Shown here: piece after piece, positions 37,882-52,646 of the stretch | Layout: every line of letters begins with the position of its first letter | How positions within the stretch are numbered: position 1 is the stretch's first letter | Source: Maribacter sp. MMG018 | GTDB lineage: Bacteria > Bacteroidota > Bacteroidia > Flavobacteriales > Flavobacteriaceae | Assembly (NCBI RefSeq): GCF_018100785.1 | Contig: NZ_JAGJEC010000001.1 | Location: 1,240,001-1,304,000 of the forward strand | Direction: 5' to 3' | Length of the DNA: 64,000 bases | The notes under the pieces: model-generated | Database searches by the model: none | The model's input: only the letters and a program-made list of their open reading frames with translations | Told to the model about the DNA's origin: nothing | Position numbers and translations under genes: made by a program

Positions 37882-37924
37882 TGACAATTATCATATTTTT
37901 TGCGATCGGTTGGCATTAGGTTTG
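37882..37924 (+). promoter_or_regulatory. FNR-type promoter of hemN
   Basis: The box TGACAATTATCA (37882-37893; other strand TGATAATTGTCA) has its centre 36.5 bp before the final G of TAGGTTTG (37917-37924), an exact -7 element. That puts the box near -41.5, the class II activation position. The hemN ATG is at 37944. The geometry is the same as at ccoS, ccoI and uspA. Confidence 0.7.
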
Positions 37925-37943
37925 TTTGTGTTTAAACCATACT

Positions 37944-39305
37944 ATGTTCAGTCTAATAGACAAATATAATATTCCGGGTCCCAGGTATACCAGTTACCCG
38001 ACCGTTCCTTTTTGGGATGTCTCTTCTTTTTCTGGTAAAAAGTGGCAGGCAACTGTGAAAAAAAGCTTTTCCGAATCAAATGAAAGAGAAGGCATAAGTC
38101 TTTATATACACCTTCCCTTTTGTGAAAACATGTGTACTTTTTGTGGTTGCCATAAACGCATCACCAAAAGACATGATGTAGAGGTGCCGTACATTGAATC
38201 CGTTTTAAAAGAATGGTCTTTGTACTTGGATCTTTTTAATGAAAAGCCTATTGTAAAAGAGTTGCATTTGGGAGGGGGAACCCCCACCTTCTTTAGTCCC
38301 GAAAATCTAAAAATGCTGATCAACGGTATTTTTAGAAAAGCGGATAGGGCAGAGAACTATGAATTTAGTTTCGAAGGCCACCCCAACAACACGACCAAAG
38401 AGCATTTACAGGCTTTGTACGATGTTGGGTTTAGAAGGGTAAGTTATGGGGTGCAAGATTACAATGAAACAGTGCAAAGGGCCATCAACAGGGTTCAGCC
38501 ATTTGAAAATGTAAAGAACGTTACGGAATGGGCCAGGGAAATAGGGTATACTTCTATAGGCCACGATATAATCTTTGGGTTGCCGCACCAGACTCTGGAG
38601 CATGTACTCGAAACCATATCAAAAACAAAATCTTTAGAACCAGATCGGTTGGCGTTTTATAGTTATGCGCATGTACCTTGGTTAAAGGGTAACGGACAAA
38701 GAGGATATAAAGATGAAGATCTGCCCTCTGCGGAAGAAAAACGGTTGCAGTACGAAACAGGAAAGATAGAGCTGGGCAAGGTAGGGTACGAGGAGATAGG
38801 AATGGACCATTTTGCACTAAAAACGGATAGCCTGTATAAATCGTTGGCAGAAGGTCGGCTACATAGAAACTTTATGGGCTATACGGCCTCAAAAACTCAG
38901 TTGATGGTAGGTCTGGGAGCTTCTAGTATCAGTGATAGTTGGTATGGTTTTGCCCAGAACGTTAAGAGTTTGGAAGAATACCAGCATTTAGTGAATAACA
39001 ATATTATCCCAATTTTTAGGGGGCACATACTAAGTGAAGAAGATACAATAATCAGAAAACATATTCTTAATTTAATGTGCCAGATGGAGACCTCTTGGTT
39101 CAATGATGCCATGCAGTTCAGCGCATTGCCCATTGTAATGGAAAGGCTTAACGAAATGAAGGAAGATGGTTTGCTGGAGATGAATACGTATCAATTGCGA
39201 ATTACCGAAAAAGGAAGGCCGTTCGTTCGAAATATATGCATGGCATTTGATTTAAAATTGCATGAGAAAACACCTGAGACAAGATTGTTTTCAATGACTA
39301 TTTAA
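37944..39305 (+). CDS. hemN: oxygen-independent coproporphyrinogen III oxidase (radical SAM)
   Basis: 453 residues from the ATG at 37944 (the frame extends to a TTG at 37926). The N-terminal GPRYTSYPTVPFW is diagnostic. The radical SAM cysteines are in CENMCTFCGC near residues 57-66. The LHLGGGTPTFF and HDIIFGLPHQT motifs follow, and the C-terminal HemN domain is present. It makes protoporphyrinogen IX without oxygen, so haem can be made in microaerobic conditions. It is followed by a uspA gene 25 bp away. The FNR-type promoter fits this job. Confidence 0.96.
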   Translation: MFSLIDKYNIPGPRYTSYPTVPFWDVSSFSGKKWQATVKKSFSESNEREGISLYIHLPFCENMCTFCGCHKRITKRHDVEVPYIESVLKEWSLYLDLFNEKPIVKELHLGGGTPTFFSPENLKMLINGIFRKADRAENYEFSFEGHPNNTTKEHLQALYDVGFRRVSYGVQDYNETVQRAINRVQPFENVKNVTEWAREIGYTSIGHDIIFGLPHQTLEHVLETISKTKSLEPDRLAFYSYAHVPWLKGNGQRGYKDEDLPSAEEKRLQYETGKIELGKVGYEEIGMDHFALKTDSLYKSLAEGRLHRNFMGYTASKTQLMVGLGASSISDSWYGFAQNVKSLEEYQHLVNNNIIPIFRGHILSEEDTIIRKHILNLMCQMETSWFNDAMQFSALPIVMERLNEMKEDGLLEMNTYQLRITEKGRPFVRNICMAFDLKLHEKTPETRLFSMTI

Positions 39306-39330
39306 TTGTTTAACCTAAATCTAATTTACT

Positions 39331-40152
39331 ATGAAGAATATTATTGTTCCTATAGATTTTTCTAACACATCTGCATATGCATTAGAGGTTGCGGCCTCTA
39401 TCGCCAAAGAGAAAAGTGCGACACTGTATGTATTACATATGTTAGAGTTGAACAGGGCTATGCTGACCTCTACGGAGGGTTTTCACCCAGAACAGACCGT
39501 TTTTCTGATAAAACTTGCGGAAAAGCATTTGAACGAGTTTTTAGACAAGCCTTATTTGAAGGATGTAAAGGTGGTTCCAATTATTAAACATTATAAGGTA
39601 TTTGCTGAAATAGCCAATGTTGCCAAAGAGAAAGATGCCGATTTGATCGTGATGGGCAGTGAGGGCGCGGATGGTCTAAAAGAGATGTTCGTAGGGTCCA
39701 ATACCGAAAAAGTGGTACGCAATTCAGATATTCCCGTATTGGTGATAAAATCTAGAATTTCTGATTTTAGTCCGAGGGAGATTGTTTTCGCCTGTGATCT
39801 TAAAAACGAAAATATACATGCCTTTCAGAGGGCAAAGGCCATAGCGGATGCTTTTTCTGCCGAACTTAAATTAGTGTATGTAAATACTCCCGGGGATGAC
39901 TTTTTGAGTACTGCCGAGATTCAGGAAAAAATAAGGTCTTTTAGTGAGTTGGTGGGCTTTGATTTGCTCATTGCCATTTACAACGATTATAACGTAGAAA
40001 GGGGTGTTTTAAATTTTGGTATAGAAACAGGTGCCGACATGATCGGTGTTCCTACACATGGCCGAAAAGGACTTTCCCATTTCTTCATGGGTAGTATAGG
40101 GGAAGATATAGCCAACCATGCTTCTAAGCCGGTGGTGACCTTTAAGATTTAG
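39331..40152 (+). CDS. tandem universal stress protein (UspA family)
   Basis: 273 residues with two Usp domains. The first (1-140) is complete, with PIDFSNTSAYALEVAASIA and the ATP-type loop GSEGADGLKEMFVGSNTEKVVRNSDIPVL. The second (about 145-273) has the ending GVPTHGRKGLSHFFMGSIGEDIANHASKPVV. It is cytoplasmic. It follows hemN with 25 bp between and shares its oxygen-responsive promoter. Such proteins aid survival under growth arrest or low oxygen in many bacteria. Confidence 0.9.
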   Translation: MKNIIVPIDFSNTSAYALEVAASIAKEKSATLYVLHMLELNRAMLTSTEGFHPEQTVFLIKLAEKHLNEFLDKPYLKDVKVVPIIKHYKVFAEIANVAKEKDADLIVMGSEGADGLKEMFVGSNTEKVVRNSDIPVLVIKSRISDFSPREIVFACDLKNENIHAFQRAKAIADAFSAELKLVYVNTPGDDFLSTAEIQEKIRSFSELVGFDLLIAIYNDYNVERGVLNFGIETGADMIGVPTHGRKGLSHFFMGSIGEDIANHASKPVVTFKI

Positions 40153-40186
40153 TTTGGAGTAAATTTCCAGATTTTTTTAGTTGGTT

Positions 40187-40213
40187 AAAGAGGGTGTAAA
40201 ACACCCTCTTTTT
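40187..40213 (+). terminator. terminator of hemN-uspA
   Basis: AAAGAGGGTGT/ACACCCTCTTT with a three-base loop, then a T tract. It also lies at the end of the converging oxidoreductase gene. TTTAGTTGGTT occurs at 40176-40186, directly before the stem. Confidence 0.88.
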
Positions 40214-40217
40214 ATGT

Positions 40218-41609
40218 TTAGACCAATTTCATTTTAGTGGGGTCCCAATCTACAGGTTGCTTTTTAAAGTAACTGTCATTGGCCAAAAGTGCAGCGCCCG
40301 CGGCCCTTAGACCAAAGGTTGGGTCTTGCACAACGTTTCCGTTCTCCCTAATGGCTGTAAAAAAGTTGTTGAAATGGTCGTAATGCCCGCCTTTATAATC
40401 TCTAGGAGCTTCCCAAGTGGTTTTTCCAGTGTTTAAGGAAGATGCTCTGGTCTCTAAGTTCTTTTCGGCATAACCGGCCCTGATCTTTTCTTGCATGGCC
40501 TCTGTAAACGAAACCATGGAATACCCTTGGGGGATCATGCTTAATTTGGATCTGGTAAGTGTTACGGAGTTTTGTCCTATTTCCATTTCCCCTTCTGTTC
40601 CGATGAGTTTAAAACCACCCCCACCGCCACTTCCGGCAATGAAATTAATACGAAACGCGGCGTTGAATGCCGTATGTGTCTCGGTTTGCGGATAATCGTA
40701 AAGAGTGATGGAAACATCGGGTACATCACGGCCATCTTTCCAATAACGTAATCCGCCGGTGGCCAAGGCCCTATTTGGACCGTGAGAACTGATTACATGG
40801 TTTAGGGTAGAGAAGGCGTGTACAAAAAGGTCGCCCGCTACGCCGGTACCATAGTCCTGATAATTTCTCCATCTAAAAAAACGTTTCGGCTCAAAGGATA
40901 CTTTGGGGGCTTTGCCCAAAAAGGTGTCAAAGTCGACTGTTTTTGGATCCGCATCAGGTGGTATTGGGTATTGCCAAGCGCCTTCGGCGGAGTACCTGTC
41001 ATTATACATGTCTAACATAACAATGTCTCCGATCGCACCCTCTTCATAAAGTTGCTTTGCCTTTTCGTTACCAAGGGACGACATTCCCTGGCTACCTATC
41101 TGGCAAATTTTTCCTGTTTCTTTTTGCGCTTTTATAATGGCCTGGCCCTCTTCGTATTTTTGAACCATTGGTTTTTCGCAATAAACGTGTTTTCCTGCTT
41201 TTAGGGCGTCTATGGTAATCTTTTGGTGCCAATGGTCGGGGGTGGCAATAATTACGGCGTCAACGTCTTTTCTTTCGAGTATTTTACGGTAATCGCGCGT
41301 AGTAAAAATAGAGGCACCCCATAGTTCTTTGGCGCGATCAAGGCGCCCAGTATATAGGTCACAGGCGGCCACTAATTTTACACCATCTACCTTTAAGGCC
41401 GATTGGGTGTCATAAATACCTTGTATGCCCGTGCCTATAAGTGCTAAGTTTATTTGATCGTTTGCACTAAAATTGGTTGTCGCGTACGCTCTGGATAGAA
41501 GTAACTTCTCTTCGAAGCCCGAAGCTAGTATAAACGGAGATGAAGTTACGGCAGCTGAGGTCAAGGTCGCTTTTTTTAAAAACGACCTTCTTGAGTTTTT
41601 TTTGTTCAT
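40218..41609 (-). CDS. Tat-exported Gfo/Idh/MocA family oxidoreductase
   Basis: 463 residues. A twin-arginine signal (SRRSFLKKATLTSAAVTSSPFILA) is followed by a Rossmann fold: LALIGTGIQGIYDTQSALK near 52-70, then EKPMV, which carries the usual EKP lysine near 145-149. The C-terminal substrate domain is typical of secreted Bacteroidota members that act on sugar derivatives, with NAD(P) carried through the Tat system in the folded state. It stands between two low-oxygen genes without an FNR box. The substrate is unknown. Confidence 0.88.
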   Translation of the reverse strand: MNKKNSRRSFLKKATLTSAAVTSSPFILASGFEEKLLLSRAYATTNFSANDQINLALIGTGIQGIYDTQSALKVDGVKLVAACDLYTGRLDRAKELWGASIFTTRDYRKILERKDVDAVIIATPDHWHQKITIDALKAGKHVYCEKPMVQKYEEGQAIIKAQKETGKICQIGSQGMSSLGNEKAKQLYEEGAIGDIVMLDMYNDRYSAEGAWQYPIPPDADPKTVDFDTFLGKAPKVSFEPKRFFRWRNYQDYGTGVAGDLFVHAFSTLNHVISSHGPNRALATGGLRYWKDGRDVPDVSITLYDYPQTETHTAFNAAFRINFIAGSGGGGGFKLIGTEGEMEIGQNSVTLTRSKLSMIPQGYSMVSFTEAMQEKIRAGYAEKNLETRASSLNTGKTTWEAPRDYKGGHYDHFNNFFTAIRENGNVVQDPTFGLRAAGAALLANDSYFKKQPVDWDPTKMKLV

Positions 41610-41663
41610 GAAGAAATTAAGTTGGTTTTGGTATTCTTTCTAAGCTACTAAAAATATGAAAAT

Positions 41664-42059
41664 TTACTTAGATGCCCTGTGTTCGTATATTTTCATGTAC
41701 AGCATGGTATTCATTTTTCGAGCCCTATTTTTTGCTATCCATGCGGTATCGCCGGTAAAAAGCTCGTCTATAGTGGCAAACCAATGGTTAAGCCAAATAC
41801 CAAAATGCTCCATGGTAATGGTATTGTTCATGATATCATCTGTTTTTTGATGGGCTTTTATAGGGTCGCCCGTATATTTTCTTTGTAAGAACAATTGGGT
41901 TTCCCAAAAATCTGTCAAGAGTTCTAGGTGGGTTTCCCAGTCTGTTACTATTTTATTGAAAATAGGGCCTAGGGTAGCATCTTTTCTGATTTTGGCATAA
42001 AATGAACGTACCAATAAAGATACGTCTTCTCTGTTTTCTATGGTTTGTCGGTTTTCCAT
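41664..42059 (-). CDS. group III truncated haemoglobin
   Basis: 131 residues, the usual size. A two-over-two globin core has FYAKIRKDATLGPIF (B helix with the phenylalanine and tyrosine of the distal pocket) and DFWETQLFLQRKYTGDP. The proximal histidine lies within AHQKTDDIMNNTITMEHFGIWLNHWF. Group III haemoglobins are linked with low-oxygen metabolism, and this gene is at the end of the cco operon, 29 bp after the membrane protein gene. It may bind O2 or NO. Confidence 0.9.
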   Translation of the reverse strand: MENRQTIENREDVSLLVRSFYAKIRKDATLGPIFNKIVTDWETHLELLTDFWETQLFLQRKYTGDPIKAHQKTDDIMNNTITMEHFGIWLNHWFATIDELFTGDTAWIAKNRARKMNTMLYMKIYEHRASK

Positions 42060-42088
42060 GATTATAGCAAGTAAAGTGTTTTGGGCGT

Positions 42089-42586
42089 TTATTTATCCTT
42101 GGAGAGGATTTCCATCATAAAACCATATAGTTCGCTTATTTGTGGTTTTCCTTTTTTCTTTCCTATTCTACCAAAAATATATAAGGAAACCCAAACGATG
42201 ACCAATAAAATCATGAATCCGATTTGCAGTCCATATGGTTTGTTCAAAGAGCTGTTTACATAGGCCCAGATACCAAAAATAATGAATAGGGTGGCTACTA
42301 TTAAGTGCAAGAACATAAATAGGGTCCATAGCGTGGGGTTTGGACCAAAAAAGCCATAAATTTTTACGCTGTCGGTGCCCGTTTCGTCAATTTCTAGATG
42401 CAATTGTGGAGACCAAAAGTGTGTTTTTTCTTTTTTGAATTTGATGAACACATGATCGTCCAGACAGTTTATGATAAAAGGTTCTTTGGTAGTAGTGGAG
42501 AACCTTTGCAATAATATTGTTTTCTTCTCCAAGATTTCTAGTTGAAACCTTGGTCTAAGAACAATATCATTGGGTAGTGTTTTCAT
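42089..42586 (-). CDS. membrane protein of unknown function in the cco operon
   Basis: 165 residues. The first ~90 residues are soluble and strand-rich (FIINCLDDHVFIKFKKEKTHFWSP, LHLEIDETGTDSVKIYGFFGP), followed by two transmembrane helices (LFMFLHLIVATLFIIFGIWAYV and IGFMILLVIVWVSLYIFG) and a charged tail. I do not recognise the family. It starts 7 bp after the stop of the SafE gene, so it belongs to the oxidase operon. An assembly or stability role is a reasonable guess. Confidence 0.75.
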   Translation of the reverse strand: MKTLPNDIVLRPRFQLEILEKKTILLQRFSTTTKEPFIINCLDDHVFIKFKKEKTHFWSPQLHLEIDETGTDSVKIYGFFGPNPTLWTLFMFLHLIVATLFIIFGIWAYVNSSLNKPYGLQIGFMILLVIVWVSLYIFGRIGKKKGKPQISELYGFMMEILSKDK

Positions 42587-42593
42587 TATTGTT

Positions 42594-43298
42594 TCATGGG
42601 TGGCATTCTATTTCGGAAGAAACGACTTCTGTAACCGGTCGTGGCGATACGTACGGTATTCCGAGGCCAAGCCCCCTTAAAATAAACAAAAAACCCATAA
42701 GAAACACGAAAACAGGGATCAAACGTTGTATTCGCTGTTTTATGTTCGCCTTTAACAGTCCACTGAAATATACGGCGGAGGTCATTAAAGGAATGGTTCC
42801 CAGTCCGAATAGAACCATATAAAGACTGCCTTGTGCTACGTTGCCCATGGCAATGGCCCCGAACAGTGCCATATATACCAGACCACATGGAAGAAAACCA
42901 TTAAGAAAACCAATGGTTAAAAAAGTATCCGCCGATTTTTTTTTGAATTCCTTACCAAGTCTGGTCTTTACTTTTGAAATTAGTTTATATACCGGTTTGG
43001 AAATATGATACTTGTTTAGGGTCTTTGCAGGAATCAATACCAGAATAATCATGATGGCCCCAATAGCGATGGACAATTTTTGTTGCATGCCAAAAACATA
43101 CAGGCCTTTACCCAATAAGCCGAAAACAAGGCCAATGAGGCCATACGCGAGTAATCGCCCTACATGGTAGAGGGTTATCTGTCCAAATTTTTTGAAGTTG
43201 TTCTCTCTGTCTACCGGAAGCATAAAGGCAATGGGGCCACACATGCCAATGCAGTGAAGGCTACCCATAAGGCCTAATATGAGGGCGGAGAGAACCAT
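42594..43298 (-). CDS. sulfite exporter TauE/SafE-family membrane protein
   Basis: 234 residues with about six transmembrane helices. The opening LILGLMGSLHCIGMCGPIAFMLP with cysteines in HCIGMCGP, and the middle motif FLNGFLPCGLVYMAL, are hallmarks of the SafE/CcoS-associated copper-related family that accompanies cbb3 oxidase genes. It may help deliver copper to the oxidase. It follows ccoH by 3 bp. Confidence 0.88.
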   Translation of the reverse strand: MVLSALILGLMGSLHCIGMCGPIAFMLPVDRENNFKKFGQITLYHVGRLLAYGLIGLVFGLLGKGLYVFGMQQKLSIAIGAIMIILVLIPAKTLNKYHISKPVYKLISKVKTRLGKEFKKKSADTFLTIGFLNGFLPCGLVYMALFGAIAMGNVAQGSLYMVLFGLGTIPLMTSAVYFSGLLKANIKQRIQRLIPVFVFLMGFLFILRGLGLGIPYVSPRPVTEVVSSEIECHP

Positions 43299-43301
43299 AG
43301 T

Positions 43302-43748
43302 CTAATAGGTAATGTTTTCTTTGTGTAAATATTCTTTGTCTTGGTAGGTCCAAGCTACTTTAATGTCCCAGCGACCATCCAACAAGCGTTTGTCAGGTAT
43401 GAGCAAATGGTTATCGGACAAACTTATAGGTAAGTTAAAATCCAACTGCTTATTAGATGGTCTGTATAGGGACACTGTGCCTTTTATTTTTTCGGGAGAC
43501 AGGTTTTCTGGAAATTCGATTCGTAGTCCGTCCGATTGTTTTTTTACCTGTAATTGGGCAACATCCTTTGTAGAATTGTTTTGGGCGTCTATCTCTTTTT
43601 GATATTCAAGTTCTGCCTTGTAGTAGTCTTCAGTGACCAAATCGTGGTTTGCACGATTGTCGGTACTCATTCTTACTATAAAGAAAAGAATAAACCCTAT
43701 AAATCCTATAAAGGCCAATACGATTGCTGTTCCCCAATTTATTTTCAT
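43302..43748 (-). CDS. ccoH: FixH/CcoH-family cbb3 oxidase assembly protein
   Basis: 148 residues. One N-terminal transmembrane helix (IVLAFIGFIGFILFFIVRM) is followed by a periplasmic beta domain with LVTEDYYKAELEYQKEIDAQNNS, the conserved CcoH segment. CcoH binds CcoI and stabilises newly made oxidase. It follows ccoG by 15 bp, the order known from other cco clusters. Confidence 0.87.
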   Translation of the reverse strand: MKINWGTAIVLAFIGFIGFILFFIVRMSTDNRANHDLVTEDYYKAELEYQKEIDAQNNSTKDVAQLQVKKQSDGLRIEFPENLSPEKIKGTVSLYRPSNKQLDFNLPISLSDNHLLIPDKRLLDGRWDIKVAWTYQDKEYLHKENITY

Positions 43749-43763
43749 AATAATGATTTTTAA

Positions 43764-45182
43764 CTATTTATAGCTTCTAGGAGCCATGAAAGAGCATGTG
43801 GTGGTTTCTATCAGTTCATCTCCACTATAAACGCCTACTTTCAGTTTTTCCTTATCGCTCTTAACCGCTGCATTGTTGATCTCTATGAACAAGGTGCCTT
43901 CTGCAAGATCTTGGGCAGGAACTACAAAATTTTCGTTCCTTACCAGTTTTACACTGCCTTTGTGCGATAGTAGTTTAAAGTGTACGTCTGGCACATCTTT
44001 GGTCGTTTTGTTGACCAACTTATAGGTATAGACATTGCTGATGATATTGTTGTCTTTGTGTTCGTACAGCTGTCCTGGCAATCTTAAAATATTGGCTTCA
44101 AGTTCATTACGTAAAAATAACATACCCACCAATACCCCTATAAGAATAACAAGTACCGCGGTATAGCCTTTTAGACGTGGTGTAAATTTGAATTTTTCCT
44201 TTTTCGTAATCTCGTCCTCACTGGCATATCTGATCAAGCCTTTGGGAAGGTTTACTTTTTCCATAATGGTATCGCATTCATCGATACAGGCGGTACAGTT
44301 TACACACTCTAACTGAGTTCCGTTTCTTATGTCGATACCTGTGGGGCATACGTTTACACACTGTTTACAGTCGATACAGTCGCCATAGCCCAATTCTTTT
44401 CTGTCTTCGTTCTTACGCCATTTTTTTCTTCCTTTTTCACCCTCGCCTCGTTTATGGTCATAGGCAACAACAATAGACTTGTTATCGAGCAATACCCCTT
44501 GCATTCTACCGTAAGGGCATGCGATGATACATACTTGTTCGCGAAACCAGGCGAAAATAAAGTAGAAGACCGCCGTGAACACCAAAAGCGAGATCAGGGT
44601 GCTTATATGCTCGCCCGGGCCATCGGTTATGTAACGTATGAGCCTATCGCTTCCTATAAGGTAGGCCAAAAATATATTCGCTATCAAAAACGAAATGATA
44701 AAAAAGATGCTCCATTTAAGACCTCTTTTTCTTATTTTTTCGGCATTCCATGGTTGTCTGTCCAGTTTTATCTGAGCTCCACGATCGCCATCTATCCAGT
44801 ACTCTATCCTACGGAAAACCATTTCCATGAATATCGTCTGTGGACACATCCACCCGCAAAAAATACGTCCGAAGGCAACAGTGAAGAGTGCTATAAAAAT
44901 AACACCGATAATCATTGAAATAACGAACAAATGAAAATCTTGGGGCCAAAATGGAAATCCGAAGATATTGAACCTGCGTTCAAGTACATTGAACATTAAG
45001 AACTGGTTGCCATTAATTTTGACAAACGGGGCAGCAAAAAGAAAAGTAAGTAGCAGATAACTTACGTATTTACGATACTTATAGTATTTTCCACTCGGTT
45101 TTTTAGGAAAGACCCATGCACGTTTGCCTTCCTCGTTAATTGTTCCTATGGAATCCCTAAAATTTTCTTGGTCCTGTGACAT
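43764..45182 (-). CDS. ccoG: cytochrome c oxidase accessory protein CcoG
   Basis: 472 residues. Several transmembrane helices are followed by iron-sulfur motifs. CGWMCPQ is in the membrane part near residues 110-116. CIACPYGRMQ follows, then two 4Fe-4S clusters in CIDCKQCVNVCPTGIDIR and CVNCTACIDECD. The C-terminal part is an Ig-like periplasmic domain. CcoG reduces copper for the oxidase active site. It is 69 bp after ccoP in the operon. A plus-strand frame inside it is not a gene. Confidence 0.95.
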   Translation of the reverse strand: MSQDQENFRDSIGTINEEGKRAWVFPKKPSGKYYKYRKYVSYLLLTFLFAAPFVKINGNQFLMFNVLERRFNIFGFPFWPQDFHLFVISMIIGVIFIALFTVAFGRIFCGWMCPQTIFMEMVFRRIEYWIDGDRGAQIKLDRQPWNAEKIRKRGLKWSIFFIISFLIANIFLAYLIGSDRLIRYITDGPGEHISTLISLLVFTAVFYFIFAWFREQVCIIACPYGRMQGVLLDNKSIVVAYDHKRGEGEKGRKKWRKNEDRKELGYGDCIDCKQCVNVCPTGIDIRNGTQLECVNCTACIDECDTIMEKVNLPKGLIRYASEDEITKKEKFKFTPRLKGYTAVLVILIGVLVGMLFLRNELEANILRLPGQLYEHKDNNIISNVYTYKLVNKTTKDVPDVHFKLLSHKGSVKLVRNENFVVPAQDLAEGTLFIEINNAAVKSDKEKLKVGVYSGDELIETTTCSFMAPRSYK

Positions 45183-45251
45183 TACTTTTTCTTTTTGCTG
45201 GTGTCGACCATTTGTTCGGCAATCAGTTTACTTATTTTTTAATTGTTTGTC

Positions 45252-46211
45252 TTAATTAATAGCGACTTCGTCTTCTGCTACCGTAACGGTAGAATCTATT
45301 ACTTGTTCTACTTTTTCTTCCGATTGGGGAGCATCTGGATCTACCCAAACGTCACCTTCTGGATCTTTTGGATTGGCCGGTGTGCTTCCATTGATCTCTG
45401 TAAGTATATAACTGGCCACTTGGGCTATTTGAGCCGGTTTTAAGGTAGACTTCCATGAAATCATACCTTTACCATCTCTACCACCTTCAGATATGGTGTT
45501 GAAAACATTTTTAATGCCGCCACCGAGAATCCAATATTGATCGGTCAGGTTCGGGCCAATACCACCGCCACCGTCGGCCATATGACAGGCCACACAATTG
45601 GACTCGAAAATTGTTTTACCTGCAGAAATATCGGAAGCTTCCGTTAACAGGGTAACACTATTGGCATCTACCAAATCTTTGGCCGTTTTTTTATAGGCCT
45701 CTATTTCTATTTGAGCCTGGGCAACCTCTTGTTCGTATTCCAATTCTTGGTCGTAAGCATGAAAAACGTGAAAACGAACCAAATAGATAACACAGAAAAG
45801 AATAGTGGCATAGAACATATATACCCACCATGGCGGTAGCTTGTTGTCCAGCTCACGAATACCATCGTAATTGTGGTCCAGTATAATTTCTTCCTCGGCT
45901 TCTATAGGTTTTGATCCAAGGAGTTTTTTGTACATCTTTTTGCCCCAGCTCCATTCAAATCCTTTGTTTTTAGAAGCGATGTAACGTTCTTTTGCTTCTT
46001 CTGATAGTGTTTGGAACATTACATTTTCAATAGCCGCTAAGATCAGCTCTATACCTATAAGCAATAACAGTATAAAAACTAAAAACATTAACGCCATTGG
46101 ATATGCTATGAATGCAGGCTGATCACCGGAGTCTATGAAATACTCCATCAGGCCAAAAGTCGTAAAAAAGAGTAGTGGCAGTCTAATCCACCAAGGTCCT
46201 AAGTTTTTCAT
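45252..46211 (-). CDS. ccoP: cbb3 oxidase subunit III (CcoP), single haem
   Basis: 319 residues. Two transmembrane helices at the N-terminus precede the typical LDHNYDGIRELDNKLPPWWVYMF. One cytochrome c domain has CVACH near residues 203-207 and the axial methionine probably in GMISWK. Proteobacterial CcoP carries two haems; a single-haem CcoP is the Bacteroidota form. The acidic tail after residue 290 is unstructured. The ATG overlaps the ccoQ stop by four bases (46208-46211), giving translational coupling. Confidence 0.95.
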   Translation of the reverse strand: MKNLGPWWIRLPLLFFTTFGLMEYFIDSGDQPAFIAYPMALMFLVFILLLLIGIELILAAIENVMFQTLSEEAKERYIASKNKGFEWSWGKKMYKKLLGSKPIEAEEEIILDHNYDGIRELDNKLPPWWVYMFYATILFCVIYLVRFHVFHAYDQELEYEQEVAQAQIEIEAYKKTAKDLVDANSVTLLTEASDISAGKTIFESNCVACHMADGGGGIGPNLTDQYWILGGGIKNVFNTISEGGRDGKGMISWKSTLKPAQIAQVASYILTEINGSTPANPKDPEGDVWVDPDAPQSEEKVEQVIDSTVTVAEDEVAIN

Positions 46212-46399
46212 AATTCATTATTTTGTTGGTTAGTGTTTTCTAAAGGAATCTCGCTAACCTCTTTGATGTATGATTTTGATGCGGTGAATACCCACCAAAA
46301 CAATACGACGAAGAAGACGAAGAAGATTAATAGTGATATCATTGGATAGGTGGCTACACCCTCAATGTTTTCCATATATCCTTTTACGAATTTTAACAT
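46208..46399 (-). CDS. ccoQ: small cbb3 oxidase subunit (CcoQ-like)
   Basis: 63 residues, with one transmembrane helix (MISLLIFFVFFVVLFWWVFTA) and a polar C-terminal tail. Its place between ccoNO and ccoP, its size, and the ATGA overlap with ccoP support CcoQ, which stabilises the oxidase. Similarity to E. coli-type CcoQ is too weak for identity alone to prove it. Confidence 0.85.
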   Translation of the reverse strand: MLKFVKGYMENIEGVATYPMISLLIFFVFFVVLFWWVFTASKSYIKEVSEIPLENTNQQNNEL

Positions 46400-46405
46400 G
46401 GCTTC

Positions 46406-48604
46406 TTAGTTTTTAGAGGTTGTTACGTTTGTTTCCTTTATTTTGATATCTGTTCCTAGACGTTGCAAATAGGCTATCAATGCTACGATTTCCCTGTCGC
46501 GCATTTCTACGAATTCTTCTCCGTTTTCGGCCGCATATTTTTTATCGGCCTCGTATGTGGAGGCAAAATCAGGATCACTGTACAGATTCTTTTCAATTTT
46601 TATGGCTTGTTCCGTCATACGGGCTTCGGCATTCTCGATGTCCTCTTCGGTATATGGAACCCCTAACTTGGCCAAGCCCCTCATTTTAGCTTTTATATCG
46701 CTGCGATCATGCTTGTTTCTTATTAGCCAAGAGTACGAAGGCATTATAGATCCAGATGAAGTGGTTTGCGGATCGTACATGTGGTTTAAGTGCCAGTTAT
46801 CGGTGTATTTTCCACCTACCCTTAACAAATCTGGTCCTGTTCTTTTACTTCCCCATAAGAATGGACGGTCATAAACGAACTCTCCAGCTTTGGCATATTC
46901 GCCATATCGTTCTACCTCACTTCTAAATGGTCGTACCATTTGAGAGTGGCAACCAACACAACCTTCTCGTATATACAGGTCTCTACCTTCCAATTCTAGC
47001 GGAGTGTAAGGCGTAACGCTCGTAATGGTAGGTATGTTCGATTTAACCAATAGGGTAGGTATGATCTGTACCATACCACCAATAAGAATGGCAATGGTGG
47101 CCAAAATGGTCAATTGTATAGGTTTACGCTCTAACCAAGTGTGGAACGTTTCTCCAGAGGTTCTGCTTTTTGATACCCTTGTTAATGCCGGTGCCTCTGC
47201 CAATTCATCTTTAACGGCCTGTCCGGACCTGATCGTTACGATTACATTGTACACCATTGTAAGCGCACCGATAATATATAAACTACCACCTATGGCACGC
47301 ATCCAGTACATGGGCATTATCTCGTGTACGGTTTCTAAAAAGTTACCGTATACCAAGGTGCCGTCCGGGTTAAAATCTTTCCACATAAGGGCTTGTGTAA
47401 ACCCGGCAACATACATTGGCAGTGTATAAAGTATAATTCCTAAGGTTCCTATCCAGAAATGGAAATTGGCCAAACCTACGGAAGCTAATCTGGTTTTGAA
47501 CATTTTTGGCACCAACCAATAGATCATACCAAAGGTCAAGAACCCGTTCCATGCAAGTGCGCCTACGTGAACGTGGGCAATGATCCAGTCGCTAAAGTGC
47601 GCAATGGCATTTACGTTTTTCAGTGATAGCATAGGGCCTTCAAACGTTGCCATACCATAACCTGTAATGGCCACTACCATAAATTTTAAGGTTGGGTCGG
47701 TACGTACTTTGTCCCAAGCGCCCCTTAAAGTCAATAATCCATTGATCATACCACCCCAAGACGGAGCTATCAACATTACAGAAAAGGCAACACCCAAATT
47801 CTGTGCCCAATCAGGTAAGGCTGAATATAATAAGTGGTGAGGACCTGCCCAGATGTATATAAATATCAATGACCAGAAGTGAACTATGGAAAGTTTGTAG
47901 GAGTACACAGGTCTGTTGGCCGCTTTAGGTACAAAATAGTACATAAGGCCCAAGAACGGAGTGGTCAAGAAAAAAGCCACCGCGTTATGGCCGTACCACC
48001 ATTGTACCAAGGCATCTTGTACACCGGCATATACAGAATAACTCTTCATTGCCGTAACTGGCAATGCCAAACTATTGAATATATGAAGTACCGCAACCGT
48101 TACGAACGTGGCCAAATAAAACCAAATGGCAACATATAAATGTCGTTGTCTTCTTTTTATCATGGTGCCGATAAGGTTGGCGCCAAAGGCTACCCAAACA
48201 ATGGCGATGCCTATATCTATGGGCCACTCCAACTCCGCATATTCTTTAGAAGTACTAAAACCTAAAGGGAGCGAAATTGCTGCGGCGACAATAACCAATT
48301 GCCAGCCCCAAAAATTAATGTTGCTTAAAATGTCGCTGAACATTCTGGCCTTTAAAAGGCGTTGGGTAGAATAATAGACCCCCGCGAAAATGGCATTACC
48401 GACAAAGGCAAAGATTACCGCATTGGTGTGTAAAGGCCTAAGACGACCAAAACTTAACCAGGATATACCATCCGTTAGGTTAGGGAACATAAACATATAA
48501 GCGAGCAAAAGACCAACTGACATGCCTACTATACCCCAGAACATTGTAGCGTAGATAAACTTTTTTACGATTTTATTATCGTAATAGAACTGCTGTACTT
48601 CCAT
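46406..48604 (-). CDS. ccoNO: fused cbb3 oxidase subunits I and II (CcoN-CcoO)
   Basis: 732 residues. Residues about 1-480 are CcoN: twelve transmembrane helices with haem ligands in RPLHTNAVIFAFVG, the copper/active-site segment WYGHNAVAFFL, and AHVHVGALAWNG. After a linker and one more helix, the CcoO part begins near 530 with the haem c motif CVGCHSQMVRPF near 548-559, RTGPDLLRVGGKY and the C-terminal LVAYLQRLGTD-like end (IVALIAYLQRLGTD). Fusion is common in Bacteroidota. It is the terminal reductase subunit of the high-affinity oxidase. It follows ccoS with 6 bp between. Confidence 0.96.
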   Translation of the reverse strand: MEVQQFYYDNKIVKKFIYATMFWGIVGMSVGLLLAYMFMFPNLTDGISWLSFGRLRPLHTNAVIFAFVGNAIFAGVYYSTQRLLKARMFSDILSNINFWGWQLVIVAAAISLPLGFSTSKEYAELEWPIDIGIAIVWVAFGANLIGTMIKRRQRHLYVAIWFYLATFVTVAVLHIFNSLALPVTAMKSYSVYAGVQDALVQWWYGHNAVAFFLTTPFLGLMYYFVPKAANRPVYSYKLSIVHFWSLIFIYIWAGPHHLLYSALPDWAQNLGVAFSVMLIAPSWGGMINGLLTLRGAWDKVRTDPTLKFMVVAITGYGMATFEGPMLSLKNVNAIAHFSDWIIAHVHVGALAWNGFLTFGMIYWLVPKMFKTRLASVGLANFHFWIGTLGIILYTLPMYVAGFTQALMWKDFNPDGTLVYGNFLETVHEIMPMYWMRAIGGSLYIIGALTMVYNVIVTIRSGQAVKDELAEAPALTRVSKSRTSGETFHTWLERKPIQLTILATIAILIGGMVQIIPTLLVKSNIPTITSVTPYTPLELEGRDLYIREGCVGCHSQMVRPFRSEVERYGEYAKAGEFVYDRPFLWGSKRTGPDLLRVGGKYTDNWHLNHMYDPQTTSSGSIMPSYSWLIRNKHDRSDIKAKMRGLAKLGVPYTEEDIENAEARMTEQAIKIEKNLYSDPDFASTYEADKKYAAENGEEFVEMRDREIVALIAYLQRLGTDIKIKETNVTTSKN

Positions 48605-48610
48605 AGTTGA

Positions 48611-48814
48611 TTAGTTATTGATTTCTATTGATGTATCTATTTTGGTTTTCTTTGAATTCTTTTTTTTTTTGACAAGTTCGTCTTCAAAAAGTATCCTTAC
48701 CGATGGAGTGTAGGAATCATCGTATTGTCCATTTTTTACCGATATGATAAAGGCGACAAAAAAAATGATGGCAACAGTTATACTGATAGCCAATAGAATA
48801 TAAATAACACTCAT
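48611..48814 (-). CDS. ccoS: cbb3 oxidase assembly protein CcoS
   Basis: 67 residues. One transmembrane helix (VIYILLAISITVAIIFFVAFIISV) is followed by KNGQYDDSYTPSVRILFEDE, the CcoS signature with the aspartates. CcoS is needed for haem and copper insertion into the oxidase. It is the first gene after the promoter at 48834-48876. Confidence 0.9.
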   Translation of the reverse strand: MSVIYILLAISITVAIIFFVAFIISVKNGQYDDSYTPSVRILFEDELVKKKKNSKKTKIDTSIEINN

Positions 48815-48833
48815 ACCTTTTTGAATTATTGGG

Positions 48834-48876
48834 TAAAATTACCGTTGACGATTAGTTTTAAATATGATATTTATCA
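48834..48876 (-). promoter_or_regulatory. FNR-type promoter of ccoS-ccoNOQP-GH operon
   Basis: The box TGATATTTATCA is at 48865-48876. On the minus strand its centre is 36.5 bp upstream of the final base of TAATTTTA (48841-48834), a one-mismatch -7 element. The twelve-base box is identical to the one at 51804, upstream of ccoI. Expected start site is near 48829, with ccoS beginning at 48814. Confidence 0.68.
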
Positions 48877-48919
48877 GGTTTTTTTTATAATCGGTTCGTA
48901 TCTATTAAAATGATTATGG

Positions 48920-49351
48920 CTATTGCTCTTTTATTAAATCGGGTTCTTTTAAAATAACGAACAGAGCGGAGGCCAATACCAAATTCTTTACTATATATTG
49001 TCCTAATAATGTCAGTACCATGGGGCTGTCATTAAAAGATTGGTCGTAAAACAGAAACAAGGGCGTAAAAGTGCAGGCGATATGGCATAGAGCAACCAGT
49101 ACTACTTGTTTTTTGAATAAATTAAAGACTAAAAAAAGACCAATGGCCAGTTCCATCGATGCCAATAACAAGATTGCAAATTGGTCGCCGAGTATACCAA
49201 AAGTAAGTTTGTTTATGGTGTCGATGGCCAGTTGTTCCGCTGGACTATAGTTAGGGAAGAGTTTTAGACTGCCAAACCACAGATATACTATGCCCAAGGC
49301 AATTCTCATTAAACACAACGGGGTTAATTTTAATTGTAGTTTTTTAATCAT
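48920..49351 (-). CDS. DoxX-family membrane protein
   Basis: 143 residues with four hydrophobic helices (LMRIALGIVYLWFGSLKLFP at the start, LLLASMELAIGLFLVFNLF in the middle). The G-x-x-x-L-W-x-G-x-x-K-x-F pattern is typical of DoxX proteins. It begins one base after the ccoI stop, so it is co-expressed with ccoI, ahead of the separate ccoS promoter. DoxX relatives act in respiration or membrane redox; the function here is unknown. Confidence 0.8.
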   Translation of the reverse strand: MIKKLQLKLTPLCLMRIALGIVYLWFGSLKLFPNYSPAEQLAIDTINKLTFGILGDQFAILLLASMELAIGLFLVFNLFKKQVVLVALCHIACTFTPLFLFYDQSFNDSPMVLTLLGQYIVKNLVLASALFVILKEPDLIKEQ

Positions 49352-51748
49352 TTAGTTCAGTTTTCTTCCTACAAGGTTAGTCATAATTGTTGTAAACCCT
49401 ACTACACTAATAGAGCTCAATGGCATTAATATGGCGGCGATTACCGGTTCTAATTGTCCTGTAACGGCAAAATAGAGCCCTATCACATTATATAACAATG
49501 ATAACATAAAACTTAATTTTATGATCCTCATGGCTTTTTTGGAAGCCATGATGTAGTTGTAGAGTTGTTTAAGCTTGGAAGCATCCATGATGCCATCGCA
49601 TGCAGGGGAAAAAACATTGATGTTCTCCGAGACCGCGATACCTACCTCTGCCTGTGCCAAAGCTCCTGCGTCGTTGAGGCCGTCACCTACCATTAATACT
49701 TTTTTATGCTGATTTTGAAGAGATTTTATGAACTCTAACTTGTCTTCCGGTTTTTGGTTAAAAAACAAGGGGGTGAGTTTAGGCAACAATTTTTCTAAAT
49801 TGGCTTTTTCTCCTTCGTTGTCACCCGACAAAATAGCTAGTTGAAAGGTTTCTGACATATTTTTGAAAAGATCTGAGACCCCTTCTCTATACTGGTTATG
49901 AAAAACATATTTGCCTTTGTAATGATCGTTGCTTGCAATATGCACAGCGGTATTTGCACTGTCACCGGCCTGGTGGTTTCCCACAAAATTAGAGGATCCT
50001 ATCTTAATGTGTTCATTGTCTTTACTGCCTTCCACTCCTTTTCCCAAATGTTCTTCATAATCATCTAGGGTCACAATGTTCTGCTCTTCCAAAAGATCGT
50101 ACAAGGCCCTGCTAAGTGGGTGGTTGGAGGCTCGTAACGTATTTTTTAAAAGTGATTCCTCTTTCGGGGTCAACGGCATACCTTCATAGGTGGCGGTACT
50201 TTTCTGAGTCGTGGTAATAGTTCCTGTTTTGTCAAATATGGCAGTGTCTACTTGGGCTAATTGTTCAATGGTCGTTGTATCTCTCAAGTAGAATTTTTTC
50301 TGTCCAAAGATCCGTAACATGTTACCCAAGGTAAAAGGCGATGCCAAGGCAATGGCACATGGGCATGCTATGATCAAGACCGCCGTAAATACGTTGATGG
50401 CCTTGCTCGGGTCGTAGTAGAGCCAGAAAGCGGTGGCCAAAAAAGCGATGGAGAGTACGCCAATGGTGAATCTTTTGCCGATACTGTCTGTAAGTGTTTG
50501 AAACCTTGTGGATTTATCGGTCTTAAATACCGAGTTGCTCCATAATTGGGTAAGGTAACTTTGAGAAACGGATTTTAACGCCTCCATTTCGATCGGGCCG
50601 TTAAGCTGTCTGCCTCCTGCAAACACTTTGTCTCCATATTCCCTTTCTACGGGTACTGATTCACCGGTGACAAAACTGTAATCTATTTTTGCCTTTCCCT
50701 TTAATAAAATACCGTCTACGGGAATCAATTCTTCGTTTCTTATCAGTAACCTGTCCCCTTGTTTTATTTCGTGCACCTGGGTGCTTTCTTCTTTGCCGTT
50801 TTCAAAAATCTTGGTTACCGCAATAGGGAAATAAGATTTGTAATCGCGTTCGAAAGACAAAAACGAATATGTTTTTTGTTGAAAGAACTTGCCCAGCAAC
50901 AAAAAGAAAACCAAGCCTGTAAGCGAGTCAAAAAAACCACTTCCCCAATCAAATATAATTTCAAGGGTACTTCGTAAGAACAATACCAAAATACCTAAGG
51001 ATATAGGTACATCTATGTTCAATATTTTACTGCGCAGTCCTTTGTAAGCGGATATAAAATAATCTGCTCCGGCATAAAAGACCACGGGCAACGAAAATGC
51101 GAACATCAACCATCTGAACACATCTTCATATTGGTTCAGCCAATACTCCCCACCGGATGCCTCGCTGGTACTAAGGTCAAAATATTCGGGGAACGATAAG
51201 AACATGACATTGCCAAAGGCAAAGCCGGCAACCCCTAACTTATAGATAAGACTTCTATCGGCACTTTTTTTCTTGTTGTCAAAATCATCTAAAGAGATAT
51301 ATGGCTCGTATCCTATTTTTGTTAATAATACGACCAGTTGCTTCAATGATATTCCTTTACTATTGTAGGTGATCCGGACCGTTTTTTTCGGAAAATCTAC
51401 TTGAGATTGGGTGATGAACGGATTTAACTTGTTCATATTCTCCAGTACCCAAATACAAGAACTGCAATGTATAAGGGGAATGTACAGGTTTACTATTTGT
51501 AGACTACCATCATTGAATTCGGTTAACCGGTCGATAATGGTGTCGTTCTCCAAAAAATCGTACTTGCCTTCTATGGCCGTTGGAGTGCTACCCGTACCGG
51601 ACTGAAGATCATAATAATAGGAGAGGTCATTTTCTGAAAAGATTTCATAAACGGTTTTGCATCCATTGCAACAGAAATGCTTTTCATCATATACGATGGC
51701 GCCAGAACCACACTCGTCACCACAGTGATAACACTTTTGTTTGTCCAT
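49352..51748 (-). CDS. ccoI: copper-translocating P-type ATPase CcoI
   Basis: 798 residues from the ATG at 51748; a 33-residue extension to 51847 would cross the promoter and FNR box and is rejected. Residues 5-45 contain CYHCGDECGSG and CCNGCKTVY. A heavy-metal domain has CSSCIWVL near 93-100. The CPCA motif for copper passage lies within ACPCAIALASP, the phosphorylation site is DKTGTITTT, and GDGLNDAGALA is the hinge. It exports copper for insertion into CcoN. Divergent from fnr. Confidence 0.95.
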   Translation of the reverse strand: MDKQKCYHCGDECGSGAIVYDEKHFCCNGCKTVYEIFSENDLSYYYDLQSGTGSTPTAIEGKYDFLENDTIIDRLTEFNDGSLQIVNLYIPLIHCSSCIWVLENMNKLNPFITQSQVDFPKKTVRITYNSKGISLKQLVVLLTKIGYEPYISLDDFDNKKKSADRSLIYKLGVAGFAFGNVMFLSFPEYFDLSTSEASGGEYWLNQYEDVFRWLMFAFSLPVVFYAGADYFISAYKGLRSKILNIDVPISLGILVLFLRSTLEIIFDWGSGFFDSLTGLVFFLLLGKFFQQKTYSFLSFERDYKSYFPIAVTKIFENGKEESTQVHEIKQGDRLLIRNEELIPVDGILLKGKAKIDYSFVTGESVPVEREYGDKVFAGGRQLNGPIEMEALKSVSQSYLTQLWSNSVFKTDKSTRFQTLTDSIGKRFTIGVLSIAFLATAFWLYYDPSKAINVFTAVLIIACPCAIALASPFTLGNMLRIFGQKKFYLRDTTTIEQLAQVDTAIFDKTGTITTTQKSTATYEGMPLTPKEESLLKNTLRASNHPLSRALYDLLEEQNIVTLDDYEEHLGKGVEGSKDNEHIKIGSSNFVGNHQAGDSANTAVHIASNDHYKGKYVFHNQYREGVSDLFKNMSETFQLAILSGDNEGEKANLEKLLPKLTPLFFNQKPEDKLEFIKSLQNQHKKVLMVGDGLNDAGALAQAEVGIAVSENINVFSPACDGIMDASKLKQLYNYIMASKKAMRIIKLSFMLSLLYNVIGLYFAVTGQLEPVIAAILMPLSSISVVGFTTIMTNLVGRKLN

Positions 51749-51772
51749 AATCCGTTTACTTATACCCTTTTG

Positions 51773-51815
51773 CAAAGATGCTGTTTGAAAGTACCAAAAA
51801 ACATGATATTTATCA
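51773..51815 (-). promoter_or_regulatory. FNR-type promoter of ccoI
   Basis: The box TGATATTTATCA (51804-51815) has its centre 36.5 bp upstream of the final G of CATCTTTG (51780-51773, minus strand), a one-mismatch -7 element. The start site should be near 51768, 20 bp before the ATG. Confidence 0.68.
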
Positions 51816-51846
51816 ATTTTTAATTTTCTTGGAATGGTTATTTTCA
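51804..51846 (+). promoter_or_regulatory. possible FNR autoregulatory promoter
   Basis: The same box read toward fnr has TATTTTCA (51839-51846) at the same 36.5-bp distance. It matches TAnnTTTG only at TA and two T's, so this is a weak promoter or none. Confidence 0.35.
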
Positions 51847-51867
51847 CCGCTTATAATTTTTTTTCAA

Positions 51868-52557
51868 ATGGAAAGCAGGTGTGAAAGTTGCATAATTCGA
51901 CAGTTTAATTCTTTACGTGCCATGAGTAAGGAAGAGTTAAAAAAAGTGTCCGATTCGAAAGTTACCAAAAGCATAAAAAAAGGGGAGCCGATCTTCGAGG
52001 AAGGTGAAAAGCTCGATGGTGTCTATTGTATAAGAAACGGTATCTCCAAACTTTCAAAATTAAGTGCAAACGGTAAAGATCAGATCGTTAAATTGGCGAG
52101 CAAGGGAGACGTTATAGGGCAACGATCTGTAGTTGCGGAGGAAAACGTAAACCTAAGTGCCGTGGCCGTTAGCGATATGGAGGTATGTTTTATACCAAAA
52201 GAACACATTGTTTCTACCTTACAGACCAATCCTAATTTTACGCTGGAGGTTTTACGCCATATGGCCCATGATTTAAAGGAGGCGGACGATGTAGTGGTGA
52301 ACATGAGCCAAAAAAATGTCAAACAACGGGTTGCAGAGGCTTTCCTTTATCTAAAAAGCAACTATGGGGAAGACGAGGATGGTTTTTTGACCCTTACGCT
52401 CTCTAGGGAAGATATTTCCAACGTTGTAGGTACTGCCGTTGAATCGTGTATTAGAATTATATCCGAATTTAAAAAGAAAGGTTTTCTTAAGACTTCCGGT
52501 AAGAAAATAGGCATCATCGATGAACGTGCGCTAAAAGAATTGGCCGAAGGGTTTTGA
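51868..52557 (+). CDS. FNR/CRP-family oxygen-responsive regulator with altered cysteine set
   Basis: 229 residues from the ATG at 51868. A longer frame from 51778 would start inside the control region and add a hydrophobic stretch, so I reject it. Cysteines are at 5, 8, 54 and 107. The spacing of 5, 8 and 107 equals that of E. coli FNR 20, 23 and 122. The Cys29 equivalent is Asn14, and Cys54 is extra. The cyclic-nucleotide fold is about 30-140. The helix-turn-helix is about 170-205 (LSREDISNVVGTAVESCIRII), with the E and R of the recognition helix conserved. It probably activates the low-oxygen promoters listed here. Confidence 0.87.
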   Translation: MESRCESCIIRQFNSLRAMSKEELKKVSDSKVTKSIKKGEPIFEEGEKLDGVYCIRNGISKLSKLSANGKDQIVKLASKGDVIGQRSVVAEENVNLSAVAVSDMEVCFIPKEHIVSTLQTNPNFTLEVLRHMAHDLKEADDVVVNMSQKNVKQRVAEAFLYLKSNYGEDEDGFLTLTLSREDISNVVGTAVESCIRIISEFKKKGFLKTSGKKIGIIDERALKELAEGF

Positions 52558-52603
52558 TAAAAAAGAACTGGATAGGTTAAGGGGCGGAGCTCTTATTAAA
52601 ACC

Positions 52604-52646
52604 TGATGGATGTCATAGTTTTACTTTTTTTGAAGAGATATTTTTA
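52604..52646 (+). promoter_or_regulatory. FNR-type promoter of uspA
   Basis: The box TGATGGATGTCA (52604-52615) is 36.5 bp upstream of the final base of TATTTTTA (52639-52646), one mismatch from TAnnTTTG. The GTCA half equals that in the hemN box read on the other strand. The start codon is at 52675. Confidence 0.6.

Follow-up and report, generated by a model that had tools for sequence, protein, structure and literature searches.

The DNA stretch examined here (the window) comprises 64,000 nucleotides (nt) of the Maribacter sp. MMG018 genome (contig NZ_JAGJEC010000001.1, positions 1,240,001 to 1,304,000). It includes five genes preceded by predicted promoters of a single design, in which a TGAYnnnnRTCA box is followed, after exactly 23 nt, by a -7 promoter element. 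The hemN gene (37944-39305, plus strand) encodes an oxygen-independent coproporphyrinogen III oxidase (TIGR00538, 429.2 bits, cut-off 324.95); its box, TGACAATTATCA, occupies 37882-37893 on the plus strand, with its centre at 37887.5, and its -7 element, TAGGTTTG, occupies 37917-37924. The cbb3 oxidase assembly gene ccoS (48611-48814, minus strand; TIGR00847, 43.8 bits, cut-off 28.35; PF03597) is located immediately upstream of the ccoNO gene and is preceded on the minus strand by the box TGATAAATATCA (48876-48865) and the element TAATTTTA (48834-48841). The heavy-metal P-type ATPase gene ccoI (49352-51748, minus strand; TIGR01525, 347.1 bits, cut-off 346.25; PF12156) diverges from fnr (51868-52557, plus strand), which encodes a 229-residue Fnr-like Crp/Fnr regulator with cysteines at positions 5, 8, 54 and 107. 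Between them lies one palindromic box, TGATATTTATCA (51804-51815), that is read as TGATAAATATCA towards ccoI (51815-51804, minus strand). It is flanked by the ccoI element CATCTTTG (51773-51780, minus strand) on one side and by a weak fnr element, TATTTTCA (51839-51846, plus strand), on the other. Finally, the universal stress protein gene uspA (52675-53577, plus strand; PF00582) has the box TGATGGATGTCA at 52604-52615 and the element TATTTTTA at 52639-52646, both on the plus strand.

A first-pass annotation of this sequence had placed boxes at 37882, 48865, 51804 and 52604, and all four were found at these coordinates and on the strands given. It had also reported a distance of 36.5 bp from the box centre to the final base of the -7 octamer, and we measured this same distance at all four promoters; the gap from box end to octamer is exactly 23 nt at hemN, ccoS, ccoI and uspA. 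The general rule drawn from it, in which the box was followed by "then 30 bp", contains an arithmetic slip, as the -7 element in fact follows TGAYnnnnRTCA after 23 bp. The hemN box has TGAC, so the box pattern should be TGAYnnnnRTCA and not TGATnnnnRTCA. As written (TGAT, TAnnTTTG) the rule is too strict and therefore misses ccoI, ccoS, uspA and hemN alike. A literal search (gap 28-32, TGATnnnnATCA, TAnnTTTG) missed all four boxes and hit two different sites instead. The octamer form TAnnTTT[G/A], which the annotation had assigned to all four promoters, does not hold for ccoI, whose CATCTTTG deviates. A fifth promoter had been missed: the fnr octamer at 51839-51846 also lies 23 nt from the 51804 box. 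Judged by this geometry, the single palindrome would occupy the class II position of both divergent promoters, that of ccoI and that of fnr.

The window contains seven TGAYnnnnRTCA boxes against 3.31 expected (standard deviation 1.80). Because 4 of 100 shuffled sequences reach seven, this abundance is by itself no more than marginal evidence. When each box is read in both directions (14 orientations), NANNTTTR stands at gap 23 in four cases, and none of the other gaps between 0 and 60 has it more than once; P is about 2e-5 after a 31-fold correction for choosing the gap. At the remaining boxes (18738, 27744 and 53740), neither side has such an octamer at gap 23.

The same gap dominates the whole 4.13-Mb genome. 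When box/TANNTTTR pairs were counted at the 31 gaps from 8 to 38, 16 of the 37 pairs fell at gap 23 (binomial P 9e-15), and a reversed control pattern gave 19 matches summed over all gaps. With any first base allowed (NAnnTTTR), the genome has 22 gap-23 sites versus none for the reversed pattern. The annotation had proposed a scan of the genome and its relatives for the same box and spacing; once run, it showed one gap dominating both genome-wide and in orthologous promoters. Eighty loci (L001-L080) fetched with the Fnr protein, from Maribacter, Flagellimonas, Allomuricauda, Zobellia and others, contain 219 box/TANNTTTR pairs at gap 23, spread over 80/80 loci; the other 60 gaps have a mean of 1.25 and a maximum of 30 (gap 0), and the reversed box gives none at gap 23. 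In seven relatives listed in full, gap 23 accounts for 70/138 pairs; G039, with a single match (at gap 33), and G011, listed in part, were left out of this histogram. A search of 60 family genomes for the box plus T at gap 23 yielded 701 matches versus 13 reversed, with at least one in 54/60 genomes.

We then sampled 118 genomes of the phylum with the gap fixed at 23, using the pattern TANNTTTG and its reversed form as control. Matches versus reversed matches were 88 versus 2 in the family (11 genomes), 16 versus 0 in the order (2 genomes), 51 versus 3 in the class (16 genomes) and 35 versus 3 in the remaining 89 genomes. Among the 150 matches listed for the class sample (14 genomes), gap 23 occurs 56 times, 22 of these in the single genome G212; gaps 24, 22 and 25 occur 25, 16 and 15 times, and each further gap between 17 and 29 occurs 3-7 times. 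The rule had been put forward as usable across Bacteroidota. It is indeed sharp in the family, but in the listed genomes of other orders of the class the gap peaks at 23 and spreads over 22-25. In two genomes of the same order and another family (G028 and G133), 9 of 16 gap-23 sites run on as TCATAAA and not as TCATATTT or TCATTTT, a possible lineage variant.

Promoter by promoter, the spacing is strongly conserved. The annotation had held that a lack of enrichment before respiratory genes in relatives would speak against it; an octamer (NAnnTTTR) stands at gap 23 upstream of ccoI in 78/78 relatives, and ccoS has one at this gap in 73/73, in the form TAnnTTTA in 70 of them. For uspA the corresponding figures are 77/78 and 76/77. 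The fnr octamer is at gap 23 in 58/80 loci (TAnnTTTG 53, TAnnTTTA 4, TAnnTTCA 1), and in 70/80 loci the 220 nt preceding fnr include a box. Since L001-L080 come from close relatives, these per-gene counts are not independent events. The hemN gene lies outside these loci, and its promoter was compared in the best 30 of the 42 matching genomes among the 60, our own included. A box was found in 28/30 hemN loci, followed at gap 23 by TANNTTTR in 27, nearly always as TAnnTTTG, and by TACTTTCG in one; between gaps 10 and 40, TANNTTTR was not found in these 30 loci at any gap but 23. The two boxless loci, L145 and L154, belong to genomes without a close Fnr orthologue (G295 and G296); other such genomes keep the box. 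The first base of the ccoI -7 element in the 78 relatives is C in 62, G in 10 and A in 6, and never T, so that this element is conserved in an off-consensus form. Such gene-specific octamer forms may reflect a tuned weakness. The spacer from -29 to -13 has 0.26-0.40 bits per position, compared with 1.83-1.98 at the fixed octamer positions; with the gap fixed and the spacer so poor in information, its length is constrained and its sequence hardly at all. All ccoI, ccoS and uspA loci with a box entered this analysis, whereas the fnr loci were preselected for a gap-23 octamer, so octamer conservation is there partly by construction.

According to PMC9723704, mapped promoters of Flavobacterium psychrophilum have TAnnTTTG at -12 to -5 and a median 5' untranslated region (UTR) of 24 nt. 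This placement, together with the gap of 23, puts the box centre at a predicted -41.5. By the same analogy, transcription is predicted to start at 37929 (hemN), 48829 (ccoS), 51768 (ccoI), 51851 (fnr) and 52651 (uspA), giving 5' UTRs of 15 (to ATG 37944), 15, 20, 17 and 24 nt, respectively. The geometry favours start codons other than those of the longest frames, which are TTG 37926 for hemN, GTG 51847 for ccoI and ATG 51778 for fnr. TTG 37926 lies before the predicted hemN start site, ATG 37944 suits the promoter, and most hemN matches in relatives start from query residue 4-10. The longer ccoI frame from GTG 51847 would run into the box, and the start was taken as ATG 51748. The class II geometry claimed in the annotation has strong computational support, and the -41.5 position is a prediction that depends on the transferred start sites.

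The annotation had also noted that the -33 TTG is missing. It is absent at 22/22 sites of our genome; part of this absence is forced, because the box covers some of those positions, and the missing -33 element is consequently weaker evidence than it appears. TTG at spacers 17-23 was found in 2/55 box promoters versus 21/97 other promoter-like sites (P 0.002), and P is 0.05 when the comparison is limited to spacers 17-20, which are free of the box. A T directly follows the box at 20/22 sites, and the flanks are A/T-rich.

Beyond the window, gap-23 boxes of this genome precede a cytochrome c gene followed by nosZ, genes for Usp proteins and a gene for a ferritin-like protein. A second divergent pair is found at C1:507819-507892, where one box is common to an Rrf2-type regulator gene and the cytochrome c gene (whole region with nosZ L093:1843-4962, C1:507342-510461); this suggests joint low-oxygen and nitrous-oxide control. 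Boxes common to two promoters also occur in G259 and G276 of the family genomes. Two sites, C1:90103 before an ArsR-type gene and C10:336138 before a metallo-beta-lactamase/rhodanese-like gene, have in common CCTTATGTGAC....GTCACA but not the T that follows other boxes. They probably belong to another Crp-family regulator and remain inside the counts of 16 pairs and 22 sites given above. One gene of that family (L090) is found some 1.3 kb away from the C10:336138 site. Two further gap-23 sites are followed by ATG frames of 37 and 42 residues (L095:3597-3710 and L094:2533-2661), each with a hydrophobic stretch as judged by eye, which may encode small unannotated membrane proteins of the regulon. 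An Rfam search near three sites returned no RNA families.

The Fnr-like protein consists of a cNMP-binding fold and a Crp-type helix-turn-helix (PF00027, PF13545, PF00325), and scores 112.4 bits with the Fnr model NF008365, below its cut-off of 228. Both structure and sequence searches place Aliivibrio fischeri FNR among its best matches, with TM-scores of 0.36-0.49 only in the former. Cys5, Cys8, Cys54 and Cys107 are invariant in 81/81 proteins. We take the cluster ligands of FNR to be C20, C23, C29 and C122 in Escherichia coli numbering. In the alignment with A. fischeri FNR, the C-x2-C pair and the cysteine of VCxIP are kept, the third N-terminal cysteine is an asparagine, and Cys54 replaces an alanine. 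Among 37 class-wide homologues, chosen as those nearest to the window protein, Cys54 and Cys107 are present in 31/31 with CxxC, Cys54 is present in 0/6 without CxxC, and none of the 31 has a cysteine at the C29 place. A further cysteine at 15-18 occurs in 17 of these 31 (N-terminal region of the Fnr homologues of L102-L130), and an aligned one in 0/81 window-type proteins. One more distant protein, L161 (G278:C19:16268-16906, 35% identity), has CxxC with a third cysteine five residues on and no Cys54; it adjoins a gene for a molybdopterin-type protein, named by eye. As a single case, its pattern would fit an either-or relation between the C29 and Cys54 places. The structure model (pLDDT 73.5, pTM 0.48) assigns Cys54 to strand 51-56 and Cys107 to strand 104-110, strands that are presumably neighbours, as the jelly-roll fold would predict. 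In the recognition helix, E192 and R196 are invariant in 81/81 proteins, and Ile195 occupies the place of FNR Ser212; this Glu and Arg are, we assume, the residues that contact TGA in FNR-type DNA recognition.

Across these promoters, then, the 23-bp gap is fixed and conserved, the -33 TTG is depleted, and the -7 elements are conserved and often off consensus. We consider it very probable that they are class II activator-dependent promoters, occupied by a Crp/Fnr dimer at -41.5 that is most likely the adjacent Fnr-like protein. In the mechanism we propose, a Crp/Fnr-family dimer would bind TGAYnnnnRTCA centred at -41.5; this would most likely be the protein of 51868-52557, with its iron-sulfur cluster intact at low oxygen. 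The bound dimer would replace the missing -33 contact and hold RNA polymerase on the -7 element 23 bp downstream, so that hemN, ccoS, ccoI and uspA would be switched on, and the divergent fnr as well, through the box that it has in common with ccoI. Coincidence combined with shared ancestry of the compared promoters might be suspected, L001-L080 being close relatives; it is hardly credible, as the gap is common to 16 different promoters of one genome and the spacers, constant in length, have diverged in sequence. An alternative sigma factor, with the box as its upstream element and a separate activator needless, would likewise give a fixed distance between two elements. The box, however, is a 12-bp dyad of the Crp/Fnr dimer type, the -7 element is the housekeeping TAnnTTTG, and one box works both ways in the ccoI/fnr and Rrf2/cytochrome c pairs, which makes a sigma factor very improbable. 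We rejected the chance reading on the gap statistics and the sigma-factor reading on the dyad box with its housekeeping -7 element. The boxes could also be repressor sites or upstream roadblocks, for the sign of regulation is not readable from position and the fnr promoter could be self-repressed. This seems unlikely to us: -41.5 is the activating position in the Crp/Fnr superfamily, and promoters that lack the -33 TTG and have several -7 elements off consensus resemble activator-dependent ones. Moreover, cbb3 oxidase and heme enzyme genes of the relative F. psychrophilum rise at oxygen limitation, according to PMC9723704. We infer activation and not repression, an oxygen signal with induction of these genes at low oxygen, an iron-sulfur cluster, and Fnr as the binder.

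Several points weigh against this reading or narrow it. Because the reversed pattern gives 19 matches in our genome, many of the 21 pairs found there outside gap 23 are background, and the start sites are transferred from the mapped promoters of another species. Three of the four FNR cysteine ligands are matched (C5, C8 and C107), the C29 place being Asn14 in 81/81 proteins. Autoregulation of fnr would not be universal, because 10/80 loci are without a box within 220 nt. Above all, 22 family genomes lack a close Fnr orthologue (E <= 1e-45), yet 11 of them have 6-33 gap-23 sites, so that Fnr is not the sole reader of the box; conversely, G268 has Fnr and no gap-23 sites. The orthologue is present in 38/60 family genomes, and the median number of gap-23 sites per genome is 11 with it and 5 without it, a modest difference (P 0.016). 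FNR, which the annotation had named as the regulator, is a likely one; the reader is not necessarily, or not only, Fnr.

The box may instead be read, within the same class II geometry, mainly by a PAS histidine kinase and a receiver-cNMP-HTH_Crp regulator, or be shared with this pair; we give this a substantial chance, somewhat short of even. In that case an iron-sulfur cluster would not be the whole signal. Our genome has both regulators. The PAS kinase (L100:504-1688) and the receiver-CRP protein (L100:1685-2734; PF00072, PF00027 and PF13545 in one chain) form, with a uspA gene behind a gap-23 box, a cassette at L100:504-3684 (C12:184003-187183), and in this genome fnr and the receiver-CRP gene each sit directly upstream of a uspA with such a box. 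Downstream of the cassette lie three Usp-like genes with gap-23 boxes, one of them confirmed by Pfam. Several Flavobacteriaceae genera that lack a close Fnr orthologue have similar cassettes. We looked at 13 of the 22 Fnr-less genomes, selected by us following their site counts: ten with at least seven sites and three with few. Proteins were named by resemblance to those of our own genome, the Crp/Fnr loci L176-L185 being left out. Nine of the ten site-rich genomes encode a receiver-CRP protein of 349-357 residues with an adjoining histidine-kinase frame, and in eight of these nine (G249, G269, G273, G278, G282, G295, G296 and G298; loci L163, L164, L167, L168, L169, L172, L174 and L175) a Usp-like gene behind a gap-23 box comes next. 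The site-poor genomes G252 (0 sites), G281 (0) and G265 (1) yielded neither regulator with the Fnr query at E <= 1e-6, which counts in favour of this reading. On the other side, G290 has 26 gap-23 sites with neither Fnr nor receiver-CRP found in a genome 82% complete, the gene after the receiver-CRP gene in G284 (L165) is not Usp-like, G278 is not strictly Fnr-less in view of L161, and the window cluster embeds fnr and not a receiver-CRP gene. Two regulators may thus read the box, given that Fnr-less genomes keep both sites and receiver-CRP cassettes. Class II activation with Fnr as reader remains the reading that we prefer: the original observation is right and larger than first stated, and the Fnr assignment is likely but incomplete. 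A wider picture is put forward tentatively, with the odds slightly against it, in which one box geometry serves a Flavobacteriaceae low-oxygen/nitrous-oxide regulon, two unrelated sensors share it or replace each other, Cys54 is a cluster ligand moved from the N-terminal loop to a beta strand (beside C5, C8 and C107), the PAS kinase feeds the receiver-CRP fusion, and gene-specific -7 weakness, conserved in the relatives compared, sets activator dependence.

The Bacteroidota promoter is quite unlike that of E. coli, and the fixed spacing suggests a docking place for an activator beside the transcription machinery. For a major group of marine bacteria, the 23-bp rule leads from sequence to predicted start sites and to a predicted regulon for low oxygen that takes in cbb3 oxidase, heme synthesis, nosZ and stress proteins. 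If the moved cysteine is a ligand, the FNR oxygen sensor can be rebuilt, and the receiver-CRP cassette suggests that sensors are exchangeable with promoters untouched. In the literature searched, mostly without subscription journals, we found no report of FNR promoter geometry in Bacteroidota or of the way in which FNR-type activators engage RNA polymerase there. HcpR2 in Bacteroides has a different motif, GTAACnnnnGTTAC, in a 2005 comparative study of nitrogen-oxide regulators (PMC1274295). An anammox-reactor study (PMC8510549) places a Flavobacteriales CRP/FNR homologue near MalR and, for the organisms that it discusses, finds denitrification regulation by the CRP/FNR family unsupported; the gap-23 site before cytochrome c and nosZ points in the opposite direction.

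The arrangement described here can be compared with several known systems. Relative to the Bacteroidota sigma-A promoter, as described for F. psychrophilum in PMC9723704, the Maribacter promoters have the same -7 element and short 5' UTRs, but the -33 TTG is missing in 22/22 sites, ccoI has C/G/AAnnTTTG, and ccoS and uspA mostly have TAnnTTTA. The likeness to A. fischeri and E. coli FNR (PDB 5e44 and mutants) extends over nearly the whole chain, at 28-30% identity in the structure search, whereas the Maribacter protein has Asn in the third place of C-x2-C-x5-C and Cys54 where FNR has Ala (YAIRSG). Class II FNR and CRP promoters of E. coli have TGAT-N4-ATCA centred at -41.5, likewise 23 bp from the -10 hexamer, and no -35 hexamer. 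The Maribacter promoters differ from them in having a -7 TAnnTTTG instead of a -10 TATAAT, and a T after the box with A/T-rich flanks instead of TTGATnnnnATCAA. In E. coli, as El-Robh and Busby reportedly found in 2002, CRP activates divergent promoters from one site; one dimer would serve two promoters here alike, the difference being that ccoI/fnr is a natural pair, present in most of the 80 loci. Finally, the rhizobial FixL-FixJ-FixK oxygen cascade joins a kinase, a receiver and a Crp/Fnr DNA-binding part, and is tied to cbb3 genes, whereas Flavobacteriaceae fuse the receiver and the Crp/Fnr part in one protein of 349-357 residues, encoded beside a PAS kinase.

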